Notes under the pieces: model-generated
Databases searched by the model: none
What the model was told of the DNA's origin: nothing
What the model saw: only the letters and a program-made list of their open reading frames with translations
DNA from: Agathobacter sp.
GTDB lineage: Bacteria; Bacillota; Clostridia; Lachnospirales; Lachnospiraceae
NCBI GenBank assembly: GCA_022767075.1
Contig: JALEPP010000127.1
Coordinates: 1 to 35,559, forward strand
Reading direction: 5' to 3'
Length of the DNA stretch: 35,559 nt
Shown here: in pieces, positions 5,361-11,767 of the stretch
How positions within the stretch are numbered: the stretch's first letter is position 1
How the letters are laid out: each line of letters begins with the position of its first letter
Made by a program: the position numbers and the translations under genes

Positions 5361-6575
5361 ATGGTAAGTGTAAATGAGAACTATTTAAAATTGAGAGGAA
5401 GTTATCTTTTTTCTGAAATTGGAAGAAAGGTCAATGAATTCCAGAAGGCAAATCCGCAGGAAAAGGTAATTAGACTGGGAATTGGTGATGTGACACAACC
5501 ACTTCCAAAGTCTGTAATTAAGGCTCTCCACTCCGCTGTGGATGAGATGGCGGTTGCTGAGAAGTTTCACGGATATGCGCCGGACCTGGGATATGAGTTT
5601 TTGAGAAAAGCAATTTCAGATTTTGATTACAAGCGTCTGGGCTGTGAGATAGAGCCGGATGAGATTTTTGTGTCGGATGGAGCCAAGAGTGATTCAGGAA
5701 ACATCCAGGAAATATTTGGGAAGGACAACATCATTGCAGTGTGTGATCCCGTATATCCGGTATATGTGGATACCAATGTTATGAGTGGAAGAACCGGTAC
5801 ATTTATGGAGGAGACCGGAACCTGGTCAGATGTAATCTACATGCCATGCACCAAGGAGACTGGCTTTGCCCCGGAGCTTCCAAAGAAAATACCGGATATC
5901 ATTTATCTGTGTTTCCCAAATAATCCAACCGGAGCGACGATAACCAAGGCTGCCCTTCAGGAATGGGTTGATTTTGCCAATAAAAATGGTTCTGTCATTA
6001 TCTACGATGCAGCGTACGAGGCATATATCAGCGAAGGTGATGTACCACATTCCATCTATGAGTGTGAAGGTGCAAGAGATTGCGCCATTGAGATTCATTC
6101 CTTCTCAAAAAATGCCGGATTTACAGGTCTTCGTTTGGGATACACCGTTATTCCAAAGACCTTAGAAAGAGCTGGAGTGAAGCTTCATTCTCTGTGGGCA
6201 AGACGCCATGGAACCAAGTACAACGGAGCACCATACATTGTTCAGAAGGCTGGAGAGGCCGTATACACAGAGGAAGGCCAGAAGGAAGTCAGAGAGTTAG
6301 TTTATTATTATATGAAAAATGCCAGCTATATTTTGGAGCACTTAAATGCAGCAGGGTACACCGTATCAGGTGGTGTCAATGCTCCATATATCTGGCTCAA
6401 AACCCCAGAAAATCTTACCAGCTGGGAATTTTTTGATAAGCTTCTTCACGAGGCAAAGGTGGTAGGAACCCCTGGTGTCGGCTTCGGCCCAAGTGGTGAG
6501 GGCTACTTCAGACTTACCGCATTTGGAAAGTTTGAGGATACTGTGGAGGCAATGGAGAGAATCTCACGGATGTAG
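5361..6575 (+). CDS. dapL: LL-diaminopimelate aminotransferase
   Basis: This PLP enzyme converts tetrahydrodipicolinate to LL-diaminopimelate in one step, for lysine and peptidoglycan synthesis. I choose the second ATG (5361, MVSVNENYLKLRGSYLFSEI) because GGAG lies 6 bases upstream and the family normally begins this way; this gives 404 residues. Fold-type I markers include GIGDVTQPLP (about 33-42), the cofactor-binding DGAKSDSGN, CFPNNPTGA, and the Schiff-base lysine K250 in SFSKNAGFTGLRLGY. The product uses glutamate as amino donor, so its position after the GOGAT/GS genes makes metabolic sense. The 53-base gap from the ANTAR gene has no clear terminator. It is the last gene before the accessory island. 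Confidence 0.96.
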   Translation: MVSVNENYLKLRGSYLFSEIGRKVNEFQKANPQEKVIRLGIGDVTQPLPKSVIKALHSAVDEMAVAEKFHGYAPDLGYEFLRKAISDFDYKRLGCEIEPDEIFVSDGAKSDSGNIQEIFGKDNIIAVCDPVYPVYVDTNVMSGRTGTFMEETGTWSDVIYMPCTKETGFAPELPKKIPDIIYLCFPNNPTGATITKAALQEWVDFANKNGSVIIYDAAYEAYISEGDVPHSIYECEGARDCAIEIHSFSKNAGFTGLRLGYTVIPKTLERAGVKLHSLWARRHGTKYNGAPYIVQKAGEAVYTEEGQKEVRELVYYYMKNASYILEHLNAAGYTVSGGVNAPYIWLKTPENLTSWEFFDKLLHEAKVVGTPGVGFGPSGEGYFRLTAFGKFEDTVEAMERISRM

Positions 6576-6939
6576 TGGGAAGACAAGCAAAGTAATCGTT
6601 ATTTCATAGATGAAGAGGAAAGCCGTGTAATGCCGTGTGAAGCAAGGAAATACATATATTTCATGGCTGGATGAGATTCTGGCATGAAGAAGCTTGCAAG
6701 AAGAACAATCTTTTGCTATCTTTATATACATAATATCTAGAAGTAATCTTTTCTAGATATTATGTATAGGAAATCTAAGTGAAATTGTATTTCACGTCCA
6801 ATATGCACCTAATATGGTTGCAATTCAATCAAATGGTTCATTTGAAAATCCAATTTGTTTTATAGTTTTAGCTTAAATACTTCTGACCTTTCGAAAATAG
6901 GATATAAGTCATCGGTGTATGACATGTATTTGCTGAGTA
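6576..6939. other. Intergenic region between dapL and the repeat array, no gene seen
   Basis: I see no credible coding frame here. Besides the long palindrome at 6725-6768 there are small inverted repeats, such as GAAATA-CATA-TATTTC (6647-6662), and a direct duplication of GCCGTGT around 6623-6638. A weak promoter-like pair, TTGCTG (6930-6935) and TAGAAT (6952-6957) with 16-bp spacing, could start a transcript that runs through the repeat array into the gene at 7672. A further, very degenerate copy of the repeat arms may lie at about 6881-6913. Confidence in the promoter is low. Confidence 0.5.
6725..6768. repeat. Perfect 18-bp inverted repeat (AT-rich hairpin)
   Basis: The arms TATACATAATATCTAGAA (6725-6742) and its exact reverse complement (6751-6768) flank an 8-base loop. 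No T-run follows on either strand, so it is not a textbook intrinsic terminator. It is followed by a second smaller hairpin, GTGAAAT-TGT-ATTTCAC (6779-6795). Together they mark the boundary between dapL and the repeat island. Possible roles are an mRNA 3' stabiliser for dapL, a bidirectional transcription block, or the relic of a small mobile element. Confidence 0.85.
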
Positions 6940-7671
6940 GTTGACCATATATAGAATGTGAGTGAAATAGTCAACAGTGCGAGAGCTGTAAAAGGGAAGA
7001 GGTTGACTACAATAGAGGAAATAGAGAAAAAATCAACGCAGAAAAAGTTGCCTGAGAAAAGGGGATGACTAGGAGAGAGGAAAAGCAGAAAAAGTCAACG
7101 AGGAAAAAGTTGTCTGGGAAAAAGGGATGACTAGGAGGGAGAAAAAGCAGAAAAAGTCAACGAGGAAAAAGATGCTTGAGAAAAGGGGATGACTAGGAGG
7201 GAGAAAAAGCGGGAAAAGTCAACGCAGGAGAAGAGACATGAAAAAGGGGGATGACTAGGAGAGAGAAAAGGCAGAAAAAGTCAACGGTGAAAAAATGCCT
7301 GAGAAAAAGGGATGACTAGGAGGGAGAAAAAGCAGAAAAAGTCAGAAGTGAAAAAGTTGCCTGAGAAAAGGGGATGACTAGGAGGGAGAAAAAGCAGAAA
7401 AAGTCAACGAGGAAAAAGATGCTTGAGAAAAAGGGATGACTAGGAGGGAGAAAAAGCAGAAAAAGTCAACGAGGAAAAAGATGCTTGAGAAAAGGGGATG
7501 ACTAGGAGGGAGAAAAAGCGAGAAAAGTCAACGAGGAAAAGGATGCTTGAAAAAAGGGGGATGACTAGGAGAGAGAAAAAGCAGGAAAAGTCAACGCTGG
7601 AGAAGAGACATGAAAAAGGGGGATGACTAGGGGAGAGAAAAGGCAGAAAAAGTCAACGAGGGGAAAATGTA
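6940..7671. repeat. Tandem array of about twelve 62-bp units with GATGACT/AGTCAAC arms
   Basis: Unit starts (GTTGAC or GATGACT) are at 6940, 7002, 7064, 7126, 7188, 7250, 7311, 7373, 7435, 7497, 7560 and 7622, so the period is 61-63 bp and nearly always 62. The first two units are diverged and carry GTTGACC or GTTGACT; the other ten carry GATGACTAGG or GATGACTAGGG. About 29 bases after each start is AGTCAAC (AATCAAC or AGTCAGA in two units), a (near-)perfect inverted partner. The intervening segment (AGGAGGGAGAAAAAGC-like) is conserved, while the segment between units varies. The + strand is extremely purine-rich outside the arms. Sixty-two bp is close to six helical turns, so the arms would lie on one DNA face. 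The array ends at the start codon of the nuclease-like gene. It is not CRISPR: there are no unique spacers of constant length. Confidence 0.95.
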
Positions 7672-8514
7672 ATGGGGATAGAAGAAATACAAGAAACACA
7701 AGAAAAAGAATTGGAGGGGCACATGGAACAAATTGTAGATTTATTAAAACAAGAACAAGCACGCATGGATGAACTGATTGAAAAGACAAGTAGACAGTTG
7801 AAAAATGCACCGGAAGGAACACTACGAATATCCGTGGATCGAGGGAAAGAAAGATATTATTATTGTACCAAAGAAGATAGTCTGGGAAATTATATTCAAA
7901 AAAAGGATAGAAGAATTGCCGAAAAGCTCGCACAAAAAGAGTATAATCAAAGGATTTTCGCTAGCGCTAAAAAGATGAAGTGTCAAATATCACGACTATT
8001 GTCTAGTTATGAAAAGGAAGGAATTGAGGAATGTTATTATCGCTTGCATAGAGGAAAAAGAAAATTGGTGACGCCCGTAGAACCAGTGTGGGAAGAACTA
8101 GAGCGAGAATGGATAGAAGAGGAATATGAAGGAAAGACTTTTCAGGAGGAAGGTATTGAGATTATTACACAAAGAGGGGAGCGAGTGAGATCGAAATCTG
8201 AGAAGATATTGGCGGACTGCTTTAACTATTACGATATTCCATATAAATACGAGAAACCATTGTACCTAAATGGATATGGTATAGTATATCCGGATTTCAC
8301 ATTTCTTTCTAAAAGAACAGGGAAAGAAATATATTGGGAACATCATGGGATGATGGACTCACCGGCATATGCGGAAAGTGCAGTGAGAAAAATTCATTGC
8401 TATGAAAGAAATGGAATTTTTCCGGGGGAAAGGCTGATATTGACATTTGAAACTCAGCGGGACCCCTTGAATACGGAAATAGTACAATTATTATTGGAAA
8501 AATATATATTATAA
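7672..8514 (+). CDS. PD-(D/E)XK nuclease-like protein next to the repeat array
   Basis: I do not recognise a named gene. The 280-residue protein starts with a charged, probably coiled-coil segment (about 5-45) rich in E, K and Q. A basic middle part follows, with KERYYYCTKEDSLGNYIQKKDRRIAEKL-type sequence. The C-terminal domain resembles PD-(D/E)XK nucleases: E177 in RSKSEKILAD, D208 in YPDFTF, and E223 followed by HH in EIYWEHHGMMD, then a helix ending YERNGI and a strand LILTFET. The canonical lysine is replaced by histidine, as in some families of this fold. The start at 7672 has GAGGGG 8 bases upstream, supplied by the last repeat unit; an ATG-TAA start-stop pair (7667-7672) overlaps it. 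AT-rich codon use differs from neighbours, suggesting transfer. Nuclease activity is inferred, not shown. Confidence 0.8.
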   Translation: MGIEEIQETQEKELEGHMEQIVDLLKQEQARMDELIEKTSRQLKNAPEGTLRISVDRGKERYYYCTKEDSLGNYIQKKDRRIAEKLAQKEYNQRIFASAKKMKCQISRLLSSYEKEGIEECYYRLHRGKRKLVTPVEPVWEELEREWIEEEYEGKTFQEEGIEIITQRGERVRSKSEKILADCFNYYDIPYKYEKPLYLNGYGIVYPDFTFLSKRTGKEIYWEHHGMMDSPAYAESAVRKIHCYERNGIFPGERLILTFETQRDPLNTEIVQLLLEKYIL

Positions 8515-8809
8515 CAAAAGGCAATACCGATAGTCGGTAGCCAGATTTTGATTAAGCTTTGGATAATCAAAGTTCTTGTGGGTATGAGACAGGGCCTGGC
8601 ATAACGAGGGCTAGTCGTCGCGCTAGCGACATGTTACAATAAATCTATGAAAAGCCACAGAATACAGTTGTGGCATGAAAATAGCCTGACATAGCGTCAG
8701 GTAAATTTCGACTTTGAATGGTTTTTTGAGAGTTGTTTTTGAAATAGCCACTCACATCTTTATCAGGACTGGGCGGCTATCAATTTGACTATCAATAATT
8801 AGAAAAACC
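8515..8809. other. Hairpin-rich intergenic stretch after the nuclease-like gene
   Basis: No credible gene is seen. Five short inverted repeats follow one another. They are TACCGA-TAG-TCGGTA (8525-8539), TTTGATTA-9-TAATCAAA (8547-8571), GTCGC-GCTA-GCGAC (8617-8630), GCCACA-9-TGTGGC (8654-8674) and CCTGAC-ATAGC-GTCAGG (8685-8701). A longer pair, ATAGCC and GGCTAT, lies around 8755-8780. None is followed by a long T-run, although TTTTTTGAGAG occurs at about 8722. This may be a structured RNA or transcript 3' end. It could also be decayed mobile DNA. Confidence 0.55.
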
Positions 8810-10601: not shown

Positions 10602-11729
10602 ATGGAAAAATCACAAGTATATTTCACTACTTTTAAGACAACCGGCTCGGAAAATCTTCTTCAAAAGCTTCACAGACTCATGAAGACAGCCGGATTTGAA
10701 AAAATTGATTTTACAGATAAATACGCTGCCATCAAGATTCATTTTGGCGAATATGGAAATCTTGCATTCCTTCGTCCAAATTACGCAAAGGTAGTGGCCG
10801 ATTATGTAAAGGAGCTTGGAGGAAAAGCTTTTCTTACCGACTGTAACACTCTATATGTAGGTAGCCGTAAGAATGCCTTAGACCATTTAGATACTGCATA
10901 TGTCAATGGATTTTCCCCGCTGCAGACAGGGTGCCATGTGATTATCGGGGATGGACTCAAGGGAACAGATGAAACATTGGTTCCCATTGATGGAGAATAC
11001 GTAAAAGAAGCAAAAATTGGACATGCTATTATGGATGCCGATATATTTATCTCTCTAACCCATTTCAAAGGACATGAGATGGCTGGATTTGGAGGAGCAA
11101 TCAAGAACATAGGTATGGGATGCGGTTCTCGCGCCGGAAAAATGGAGCAGCATCGTGAGGGTAAGCCAAGTGTAGCAAAGGAAGGTTGCGTGGGCTGCGG
11201 TTCTTGCGTGAAAATCTGTGCACACGGAGCTCCTGTGATTGAGAATGGAAAGGCAACCATTAACCATGATAAATGTGTGGGTTGTGGCCGATGCCTGGCG
11301 GTATGCCCGAAAAATGTCATTGATGCGGACGATAACAAAAATATCGCCATGCTGAATTATAAGATGGCGGAGTACGCTTATGCAGTATGTAAGGATCGTC
11401 CATGCTTCCATGTATCTCTGATTTGCGATGTATCACCGAACTGTGATTGTCATTCAGAGAATGATATTCCGATTATTCCAAATGTGGGAATGCTTGCGTC
11501 CTTTGATCCGGTTGCATTGGATCAGGCCTGTGCAGACCTCTGCAACGCGATGCCTCCGATTGACGGAAGTATTTTGGCGGATAACCTTAAGAAGGAAGAG
11601 GAAGCTCATTGTCACCATCATGGAGACCATTTCCATATGACTCATCCGGATACAGAGTGGGAGACCTGCCTGGATCATGCACAGAAAATGGGACTCGGCC
11701 AGCGAGAGTACGAGCTGAAGAGGATATAA
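10602..11729 (+). CDS. DUF362 protein with two [4Fe-4S] ferredoxin motifs
   Basis: The 375-residue protein has an N-terminal DUF362 domain (about 1-190 and again 280-330; markers IKIHFGEYGN, FLTDCNTLY, SLTHFKGHEMAGFGGAIKNIGMGCGSR). Into this a bacterial ferredoxin module is inserted: CVGCGSCVKIC (cysteines 196, 199, 202, 206) and CVGCGRCLAVC (225, 228, 231, 235). Further cysteines follow at CDVSPNCDC. The C-terminal tail has a histidine cluster, HCHHHGDHFH, that could bind metal. DUF362 proteins are thought to be cytosolic electron carriers, often linked to anaerobic redox enzymes; the reaction is unknown. The start has AGGAGGT 6 bases upstream; longer upstream frames lack such a site. The last ten codons are duplicated just after the stop. 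Confidence 0.92.
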   Translation: MEKSQVYFTTFKTTGSENLLQKLHRLMKTAGFEKIDFTDKYAAIKIHFGEYGNLAFLRPNYAKVVADYVKELGGKAFLTDCNTLYVGSRKNALDHLDTAYVNGFSPLQTGCHVIIGDGLKGTDETLVPIDGEYVKEAKIGHAIMDADIFISLTHFKGHEMAGFGGAIKNIGMGCGSRAGKMEQHREGKPSVAKEGCVGCGSCVKICAHGAPVIENGKATINHDKCVGCGRCLAVCPKNVIDADDNKNIAMLNYKMAEYAYAVCKDRPCFHVSLICDVSPNCDCHSENDIPIIPNVGMLASFDPVALDQACADLCNAMPPIDGSILADNLKKEEEAHCHHHGDHFHMTHPDTEWETCLDHAQKMGLGQREYELKRI

Positions 11730-11767
11730 AAGTCGACCAGCGTGCGTACGAGCTGAAGAGGATATAA
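11700..11767. repeat. Tandem 30-bp duplication of the DUF362 gene end
   Basis: Bases 11700-11729 encode the last codons (QREYELKRI, stop) and recur at 11738-11767 with only two mismatches, in a 38-bp period. The second copy would encode QRAYELKRI and stop. It lies outside the gene and appears non-coding, a relic of a small tandem duplication or slippage. Confidence 0.9.

Follow-up and report, generated by a model that had tools for sequence, protein, structure and literature searches.

The presence of a phased array of tandem repeats running up to the start of a nuclease-like gene, in a 35,559-nucleotide stretch of DNA from Agathobacter sp. (GenBank assembly GCA_022767075.1, contig JALEPP010000127.1; the whole stretch is referred to below as the window), raises the question of what such an array is and what reads it. 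A first-pass annotation of the sequence had proposed either an iteron-like protein-binding array or an RNA of repeated hairpins. We favour the interpretation, to which we would assign a probability of about 0.62, that the adjacent nuclease uses it as a landing array of double-stranded DNA, putatively binding it as dimers. The observations on which this interpretation is built are that spacing is quantised, that modules are inverted, that arms are kept while spacers are less so, that arms are closer between close homologues, that arrays with the same arms exist without the gene, and that the gene has intact catalytic residues.

The window array consists of 12 modules of 36 bp each (starting at 6940, 7002, 7064, 7126, 7188, 7250, 7311, 7373, 7435, 7497, 7560 and 7622), with start-to-start steps of 62, 62, 62, 62, 62, 61, 62, 62, 62, 63 and 62 bp, and it runs up to a gene encoding a protein of 280 aa. 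Tandem Repeats Finder reported a period of 62, 10.4 copies, 86% matches and a score of 881 for positions 7018–7661, and the lag-62 score lay 140 SD above Markov shuffles (n=40), in agreement with the first-pass description of about twelve units of near-invariant spacing. Each module contains two inverted arms, typically GATGACT and AGTCAAC, with arm centres 29 bp apart within the module and the next arm following at 33 bp; the unit at 7311 is an exception and ends AGTCAG. Ten of the 12 units are alike over their whole length, and the likeness of the diverged modules 1 and 2 to the others lies mainly in arms and spacing. A perfect GTTGAC/GTCAAC pair had been assigned to both of these; it is present in unit 1, but unit 2 carries GTTGACT/AATCAAC, and the GATGACT/AGTCAAC pair, correctly assigned to most later units, holds an A–A mismatch, so that the window arms are not a perfect stem. 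The purine bias noted outside the arms was also found, the inner + strand of the modules being strongly enriched in purines. A simple consensus scan of 6560–8700 revealed neither a terminator pattern on the + strand nor, upstream of 7778, any promoter-like site on that strand. A coding repeat was rejected because a period of 62 is not a multiple of three.

The regular spacing extends to homologues of the gene. We analysed 124 loci, comprising 120 fetched homologues, taken down the E-value rankings from the matches listed in a family search (100) and a genus search (20), together with L001 and L031–L033 (L numbers denote loci, G numbers genomes); 123 were testable upstream. This set contains close pairs, e.g. 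L047/L119, and left out several homologues, mostly close to a contig end. A significant repeat (its score reached by at most 1/100 shuffles) was present in 99 of the 123 upstream regions, and in 95 it ended within 400 bp of the start codon; the control stretch from −2400 to −1700 of the same loci held a repeat in 7/95. The periods of these 95 adjacent arrays were 51–54 bp (n=38), 61–64 bp (n=26), 72–75 bp (n=20), 85 bp (n=3) and 41–42 bp (n=3), with the remaining five at 70 (twice), 76, 87 and 100 bp, so that 87 of them correspond to 5, 6, 7 or 8 turns of DNA. Periods gathered at multiples of 10.5 bp with a phase near zero (R 0.81), as did spacings at the level of arms (n=643, R 0.78) and of exact modules (n=271, R 0.86). 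When a held-out set of 20 loci (17 drawn from the class sample) was analysed, 15 upstream regions were significant (three barely), and 14 of the 15 periods fell at 53–54, 61–65, 72–74 or 83–85 bp (53, 54 twice, 61, 62, 64, 65, 72, 73, 74, 83 three times and 85), the exception being 44 bp. Moreover, spacing is mixed while module width is fixed in L097 (52 and 61–62 bp, also 135), L137 (51 and 62–63 bp, also 251) and L173 (63 and 96 bp). Period class tracks the protein tree, with 20 changes compared with 38.8 for shuffled labels, and the position of the window's six-turn array within a mostly five-turn clade indicates that the period shifts by whole turns. A satellite independent of helical phase is contradicted by this quantised spacing.

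The link between array and gene holds for the family, not absolutely. Under a stricter test requiring exact inverted 6-mers in at least three modules, which misses imperfect arms, the window's own among them, 56/123 upstream regions, 9/123 downstream regions and 63/124 loci on either side were positive, and shuffles (20 per upstream and 5 per downstream region) never gave more than two modules. Arrays with the same arms flank the gene on both sides in L117, L080 and L163, and module arrays lie downstream only in L086, L156 and L171. The first-pass annotation had asked whether arrays always precede homologues of the gene; many upstream regions do carry a repeat, but in some loci the array is downstream, on both sides or not detected. 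Short-period repeats (21, 35 or 38 bp), not the 53/63/74-bp array, lie upstream near the gene in L093, L138 and L126, and a repeat of the same short-period class lies at −566 to −376 in L123. Promoter-like sequence was read by eye directly before the gene in L133 and L134.

Covariation analysis of the arms indicates that the modules act as DNA half-sites, with arms varying independently, and not as RNA stems. In an RNA stem, two-sided changes should be more numerous and G–T mismatches should outnumber A–C. In 56 arrays with 478 paired columns, 21 two-sided changes were counted against 16.3±3.1 in shuffles, with 103 G–T mismatches (103.0 shuffled) and 110 A–C mismatches (111.0 shuffled). The arm lists were automatic and some were wrong; those of L001, L032, L064 and L065, hand-corrected for comparisons of arms with proteins, are retained in this set where they pass its filter. 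With doubtful arms, including these four, removed (49 arrays, 425 columns), there were 17 two-sided changes against 13.2±3.1, a value reached by 146/1000 shuffles, with G–T at 91 (91.4 shuffled) and A–C at 87 (88.9 shuffled). Neither RNA covariation above shuffles nor a G–U preference in the arms was found in either set. The half-sites themselves are conserved: across 46 arrays, conservation was 0.90 for arms, 0.79 for spacer and 0.76 for linker, a contrast mildly biased by the picking of arms from the consensus, and in L105, L106 and L137 little besides arms and spacing survives. The distance between inverted half-sites is 24–33 bp in 64/82 arrays, and arm sequences vary by locus. Of the two proposals of the first-pass annotation, therefore, the protein-binding array gains from the turn-quantised spacing across homologues and the independence of the arms, and the RNA of repeated hairpins finds no backing in covariation.

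The linked gene encodes a protein with predicted helices at residues 3–44, 80–112, 115–125 and 140–149 and a nuclease domain at approximately 150–280, in which E177, D208, E223 and H224 are invariant among 117 homologues (the full-length proteins available from the 124 loci, which also gave the tree). Judged from sequence and predicted structure, the Vsr/EDxHD-like PD-(D/E)XK site is intact, with core fold, acidic residues and histidine present. A second-look list of folds gave Vsr/EDxHD-like domains; the absence of a ToxN-like fold from that list proves nothing. Neither NCBIfam nor Pfam (threshold 0.01) gave a match to the protein; among 33 members, Pfam matches were DegS, DUF4358, TetR_C_26 and APOBEC_C, in one member each, none being a Y1 transposase. 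The C-terminal domain is homologous to PDC-S68 of PADLOC (E 2.2e-28, residues 150–277), and the nuclease domain was also matched in viral and plasmid helicases. Homologues number up to eight per genome and occur in 82/250 genomes of the window's family, in 30/62 genomes of the genus and in 24/291 genomes of the class, where some matches are to the nuclease domain alone and full-length homologues lie in four other families (f5, f18, f34 and f45). In a phylum sample of 398 genomes, full-length matches came from the window's own family only, and the remaining matches were mainly to the nuclease domain, often in ORFs of approximately 650–1270 aa.

If the linked protein reads the arms, arm sequences might be expected to follow protein identity. 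Among pairs with at least 50% protein identity (n=98), mean arm similarity was 3.97 against 3.37±0.14 under permutation, a value reached by 0/5000 permutations; at identity cut-offs of 0.45, 0.50, 0.55 and 0.60 or above, 55, 0, 0 and 2 of the 5000 permutations, respectively, reached the observed value. Such likeness among closer homologues would be expected if the linked protein read a code that changes fast, though it is no proof. Furthermore, one genome (G073) holds six homologues (L095, L100, L110, L116, L154 and L165) with six arm sequences, of which three (L100, L116 and L154) are partly alike, so that a single host protein is unlikely to read them all.

Arrays are not confined to the gene. 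The window's own genome, which is 84% complete, yielded one nuclease homologue and five arrays in all, four of them gene-less and bearing the same arms (Table 1), although TGAC and TCA are fixed by the search pattern. The first-pass annotation had counted arrays scattered in unrelated places without conserved arms as a point against its proposal: same-arm arrays do lie in intergenic DNA without the gene, whereas the full unit pattern of the window array was found at its own site only. The gene-less arrays have ordinary genes as neighbours on our reading of the translations: one follows an S1-domain gene, one precedes a PadR-type regulator, one separates two genes that converge and one adjoins a MerR-type gene. 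The excess of this genome over a reversed-pattern control (40/40 against 8/5) is the largest in any of the 62 genus genomes. Elsewhere, G221 carries an interior gene-less module pair and one isolated module in addition to the linked array, without a match in six other genomes; two more arrays occur in G073, without a match in five other genomes, and as both are close to contig ends a gene may lie across the break; G213 has the linked array alone under a strict pattern. Short direct repeats (CCTCCGTCCCCGTGGAAAG-like) were also seen in intergenic DNA after the MerR-type gene at 5460–5620 of L196.

Table 1. Modules of the window array, the linked gene and same-arm arrays elsewhere in the genome (coordinates are those of the window)
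Feature	Coordinates	Strand	Description
Phased array	6940..7657	+	12 modules, two inverted half-sites each, every 61–63 bp (six helical turns)
Module 1	6940..6975	+	GTTGAC ... GTCAAC; spacer diverged
Module 2	7002..7037	+	GTTGACT ... AATCAAC; spacer diverged
Module 3	7064..7099	+	GATGACT ... AGTCAAC; first of ten similar units
Last module	7622..7657	+	Start codon 7672 after 14 bases
Linked gene, 280 aa	7672..8514	+	Predicted helical N-terminal part and C-terminal Vsr/EDxHD-like PD-(D/E)XK domain
Gene-less array C1, own genome			6 modules at 52 bp
Gene-less array C4, own genome			8 modules at 61–63 bp
Gene-less array C29, own genome			7 modules at 60–62 bp
Gene-less array C119, own genome			9 modules at 62–63 bp

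The genes flanking the window locus read as metabolic and transport genes, and the best relatives in the genus are at most 72% identical to the window at the upstream gene. When 60 of 221 neighbouring ORFs of nuclease loci were scanned, no family occurred in more than two and no recurring partner was seen; a defence-island or prophage setting is not favoured for this reason, although single matches to an integrase, a DNA methyltransferase and a HerA-like protein and two matches to phage tail proteins do occur. An iteron replication origin was rejected because the gene beside the array resembles a nuclease and matched no Rep family in Pfam or NCBIfam, and because the flanks read as metabolic and transport genes. 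Inspection by eye showed that, in most units of 7100–7600, AGGAGGG or GAGGAAAAAG, resembling a ribosome-binding site, precedes a very short open frame (e.g. ATG CTT GAG AAA AAG GGA TGA), the frames and start codons differing between units; such mini-ORFs were rejected as an explanation, being present but variable. The window also contains a perfect 18-bp inverted repeat with an 8-nt loop at 6725–6768, between an aminotransferase gene and the array, and a 38-bp direct repeat (1.9 copies) at 11695–11767, at the end of a ferredoxin-like gene.

Our working model starts from module anatomy. A homodimer, held together by the helical N-terminus, would set two half-site readers approximately 24–33 bp apart over an unconstrained spacer, and because modules lie at whole turns (5, 6, 7 or 8), bound dimers would align on one helical face, where neighbours could pack cooperatively. 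We think it likely that the arms are read by the linked nuclease. By a weaker line of reasoning, binding next to the start codon might also regulate the nuclease gene, and we regard the odds that the array sets expression of the gene in this way as even. More speculatively, by analogy with RAYT/REPIN systems, occasional cutting of modules followed by repair might multiply and spread them, making gene and arrays a self-spreading element of REPIN type, a suggestion that we consider rather doubtful. Alternatively, the arrays may serve the host and the nuclease may maintain them.

Several observations weigh against the landing-array interpretation. Homologues with no detected array, named by the first-pass annotation as a refuting case, do occur, L132–L134 forming a clade of them, even though 99/123 upstream regions carry a repeat; over all pairs, arm similarity and protein identity gave no signal in a Mantel test (0.037); and the arrays of the close pair L031/L032 are visibly different. 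Further points come from the properties expected of an array whose transcript, a leader or antitoxin made of repeated hairpins, controls or neutralises the nuclease in the style of type III toxin–antitoxin systems: repeats stand upstream of the gene in those 99 homologues, the window array lies against the start codon and a simple scan showed no promoter pattern separating the two, the sense strand is purine-biased in 65/87 arrays, and RNA of the window array folds better than 20/20 shuffles (z −3.1). Transcription has also been reported for the 52-nt repeats of Bacillus coagulans (PMC8161180; PMC8625621). However, covariation and G–U preference are lacking, with G–T about as frequent as A–C; periods are locked to multiples of 10.5 bp, which an RNA does not need; arrays also occur downstream, on both sides or without the gene; and most window modules hold an A–A mismatch within the arms. 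Such an RNA is not our first choice on account of the missing covariation and G–U preference together with the turn-quantised spacing, and we consider it unlikely.

A host DNA-binding protein might instead read the arrays as nucleoid sites that organise the chromosome, the nuclease gene being merely adjacent. That gene-less arrays lie in intergenic DNA with ordinary genes close by fits this, as does the lack of a recurring partner among the scanned neighbours of nuclease loci, but the paralogues of G073 differ in their arms, arms are alike between close homologues and period class follows the nuclease tree, and repeats are enriched just upstream of the gene (99/123 against 7/95 in the control), which makes host sites of this kind improbable in our view. 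A neutral satellite produced by slippage and read by nothing would account for the full-length likeness of 10/12 window units, as recent tandem duplication would give; it is hardly credible given quantised periods, arrays in which spacing varies but module width does not, and arms that persist where spacers have changed (L105, L106).

Comparison with published repeats is instructive, and the first-pass statement that no such element had been described was too strong. Tandem repeats called 'enigmatic', which keep one size (52 or 20–21 nt) while their sequence varies with the species and which have no known function, have been described in Bacillus and other Firmicutes (PMC8161180). Subirana and Messeguer (2021) describe short signals and their reverse within one repeat, found no interacting protein, equate 20–21 nt with two helix turns, suggest nucleoid proteins or small RNAs and propose a role in chromosome organisation for the 52-nt repeats (PMC8161180). 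Their Table 1 lists 27 units; when an arm finder like ours was applied to 19 of these, inverted arms (reached by at most 3/100 shuffles) were present in 16, with an arm distance, by the shorter side, of 16–24 bp, on which basis the window array is a relative in kind of this published puzzle. Both systems have a constant period, theirs near five turns, unrelated sequences and dispersed arrays that share short signals and their reverse, five such arrays being present in the window's own genome. As far as the available text goes, theirs comprise 20–21 and 52 nt only and no protein, whereas periods here span five to eight turns (62 bp in the window, not 52 or 20–21, with classes of 61–64, 72–75 and 83–85 bp also in the family) and a dedicated nuclease gene is present. 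Related non-coding satellites scattered over one genome in Leptospira interrogans and Methanocella conradii (Subirana and Messeguer 2019, PMC6749651) likewise resemble ours as dispersed relatives; the accessible part of that source mentions neither a link to a nuclease nor inverted modules nor a helical rule. In the literature searched we found no link of such arrays to a nuclease gene, no six-, seven- or eight-turn classes and nothing on PDC-S68. The nuclease link, the turn-quantised periods and the module anatomy appear to be new, and they supply a concrete candidate protein family for the arrays found here, a site anatomy and a whole-turn rule with which the question becomes testable. We would tentatively extend the argument, at somewhat less than even odds, to a new class of selfish or domesticated bacterial system in which a dimeric Vsr/EDxHD-like nuclease recognises inverted half-sites and builds, maintains and spreads phased arrays with its own code for each paralogue; the 52-nt and 20–21-nt satellites of Bacillus and Paenibacillus would then be products of analogous proteins.

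Among nuclease systems, EDxHD/Vsr-type homing endonucleases such as I-Bth0305I differ in that the genes described here are chromosomal, with none seen in an intron or phage, and have their presumed target array beside them. RecD-like helicases carrying PDC-S68 share a homologous C-terminal nuclease domain, but here a helical N-terminal part replaces the helicase and arrays are present. In type III toxin–antitoxin systems (ToxIN, CptIN), tandem repeats whose sequence varies by locus lie upstream of a nuclease gene, an arrangement resembling ours; the differences are the lack of RNA covariation, the lack of a terminator pattern between the window array and the gene, the turn-quantised spacing and the gene-less arrays. 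Were the array read by its nuclease, the numerous homologues with adjacent targets would form a ready set for studying change of DNA code in a small nuclease. RAYTs are HUH (Y1) transposases that act on hairpins and are thought to multiply and spread REPINs, the REP sequence being described as hairpin-forming with a GTAG or CGTC tag. Our loci differ in having a PD-(D/E)XK domain and no Y1 transposase, no hairpin signal, and spacing by helical turns; they resemble RAYT/REPIN (BIME) systems in combining one nuclease-type gene, cognate inverted repeats adjoining it and gene-less intergenic copies, and, if our interpretation is true, they would add a PD-(D/E)XK counterpart to RAYT/REPIN among the origins of repeats dispersed over bacterial chromosomes.
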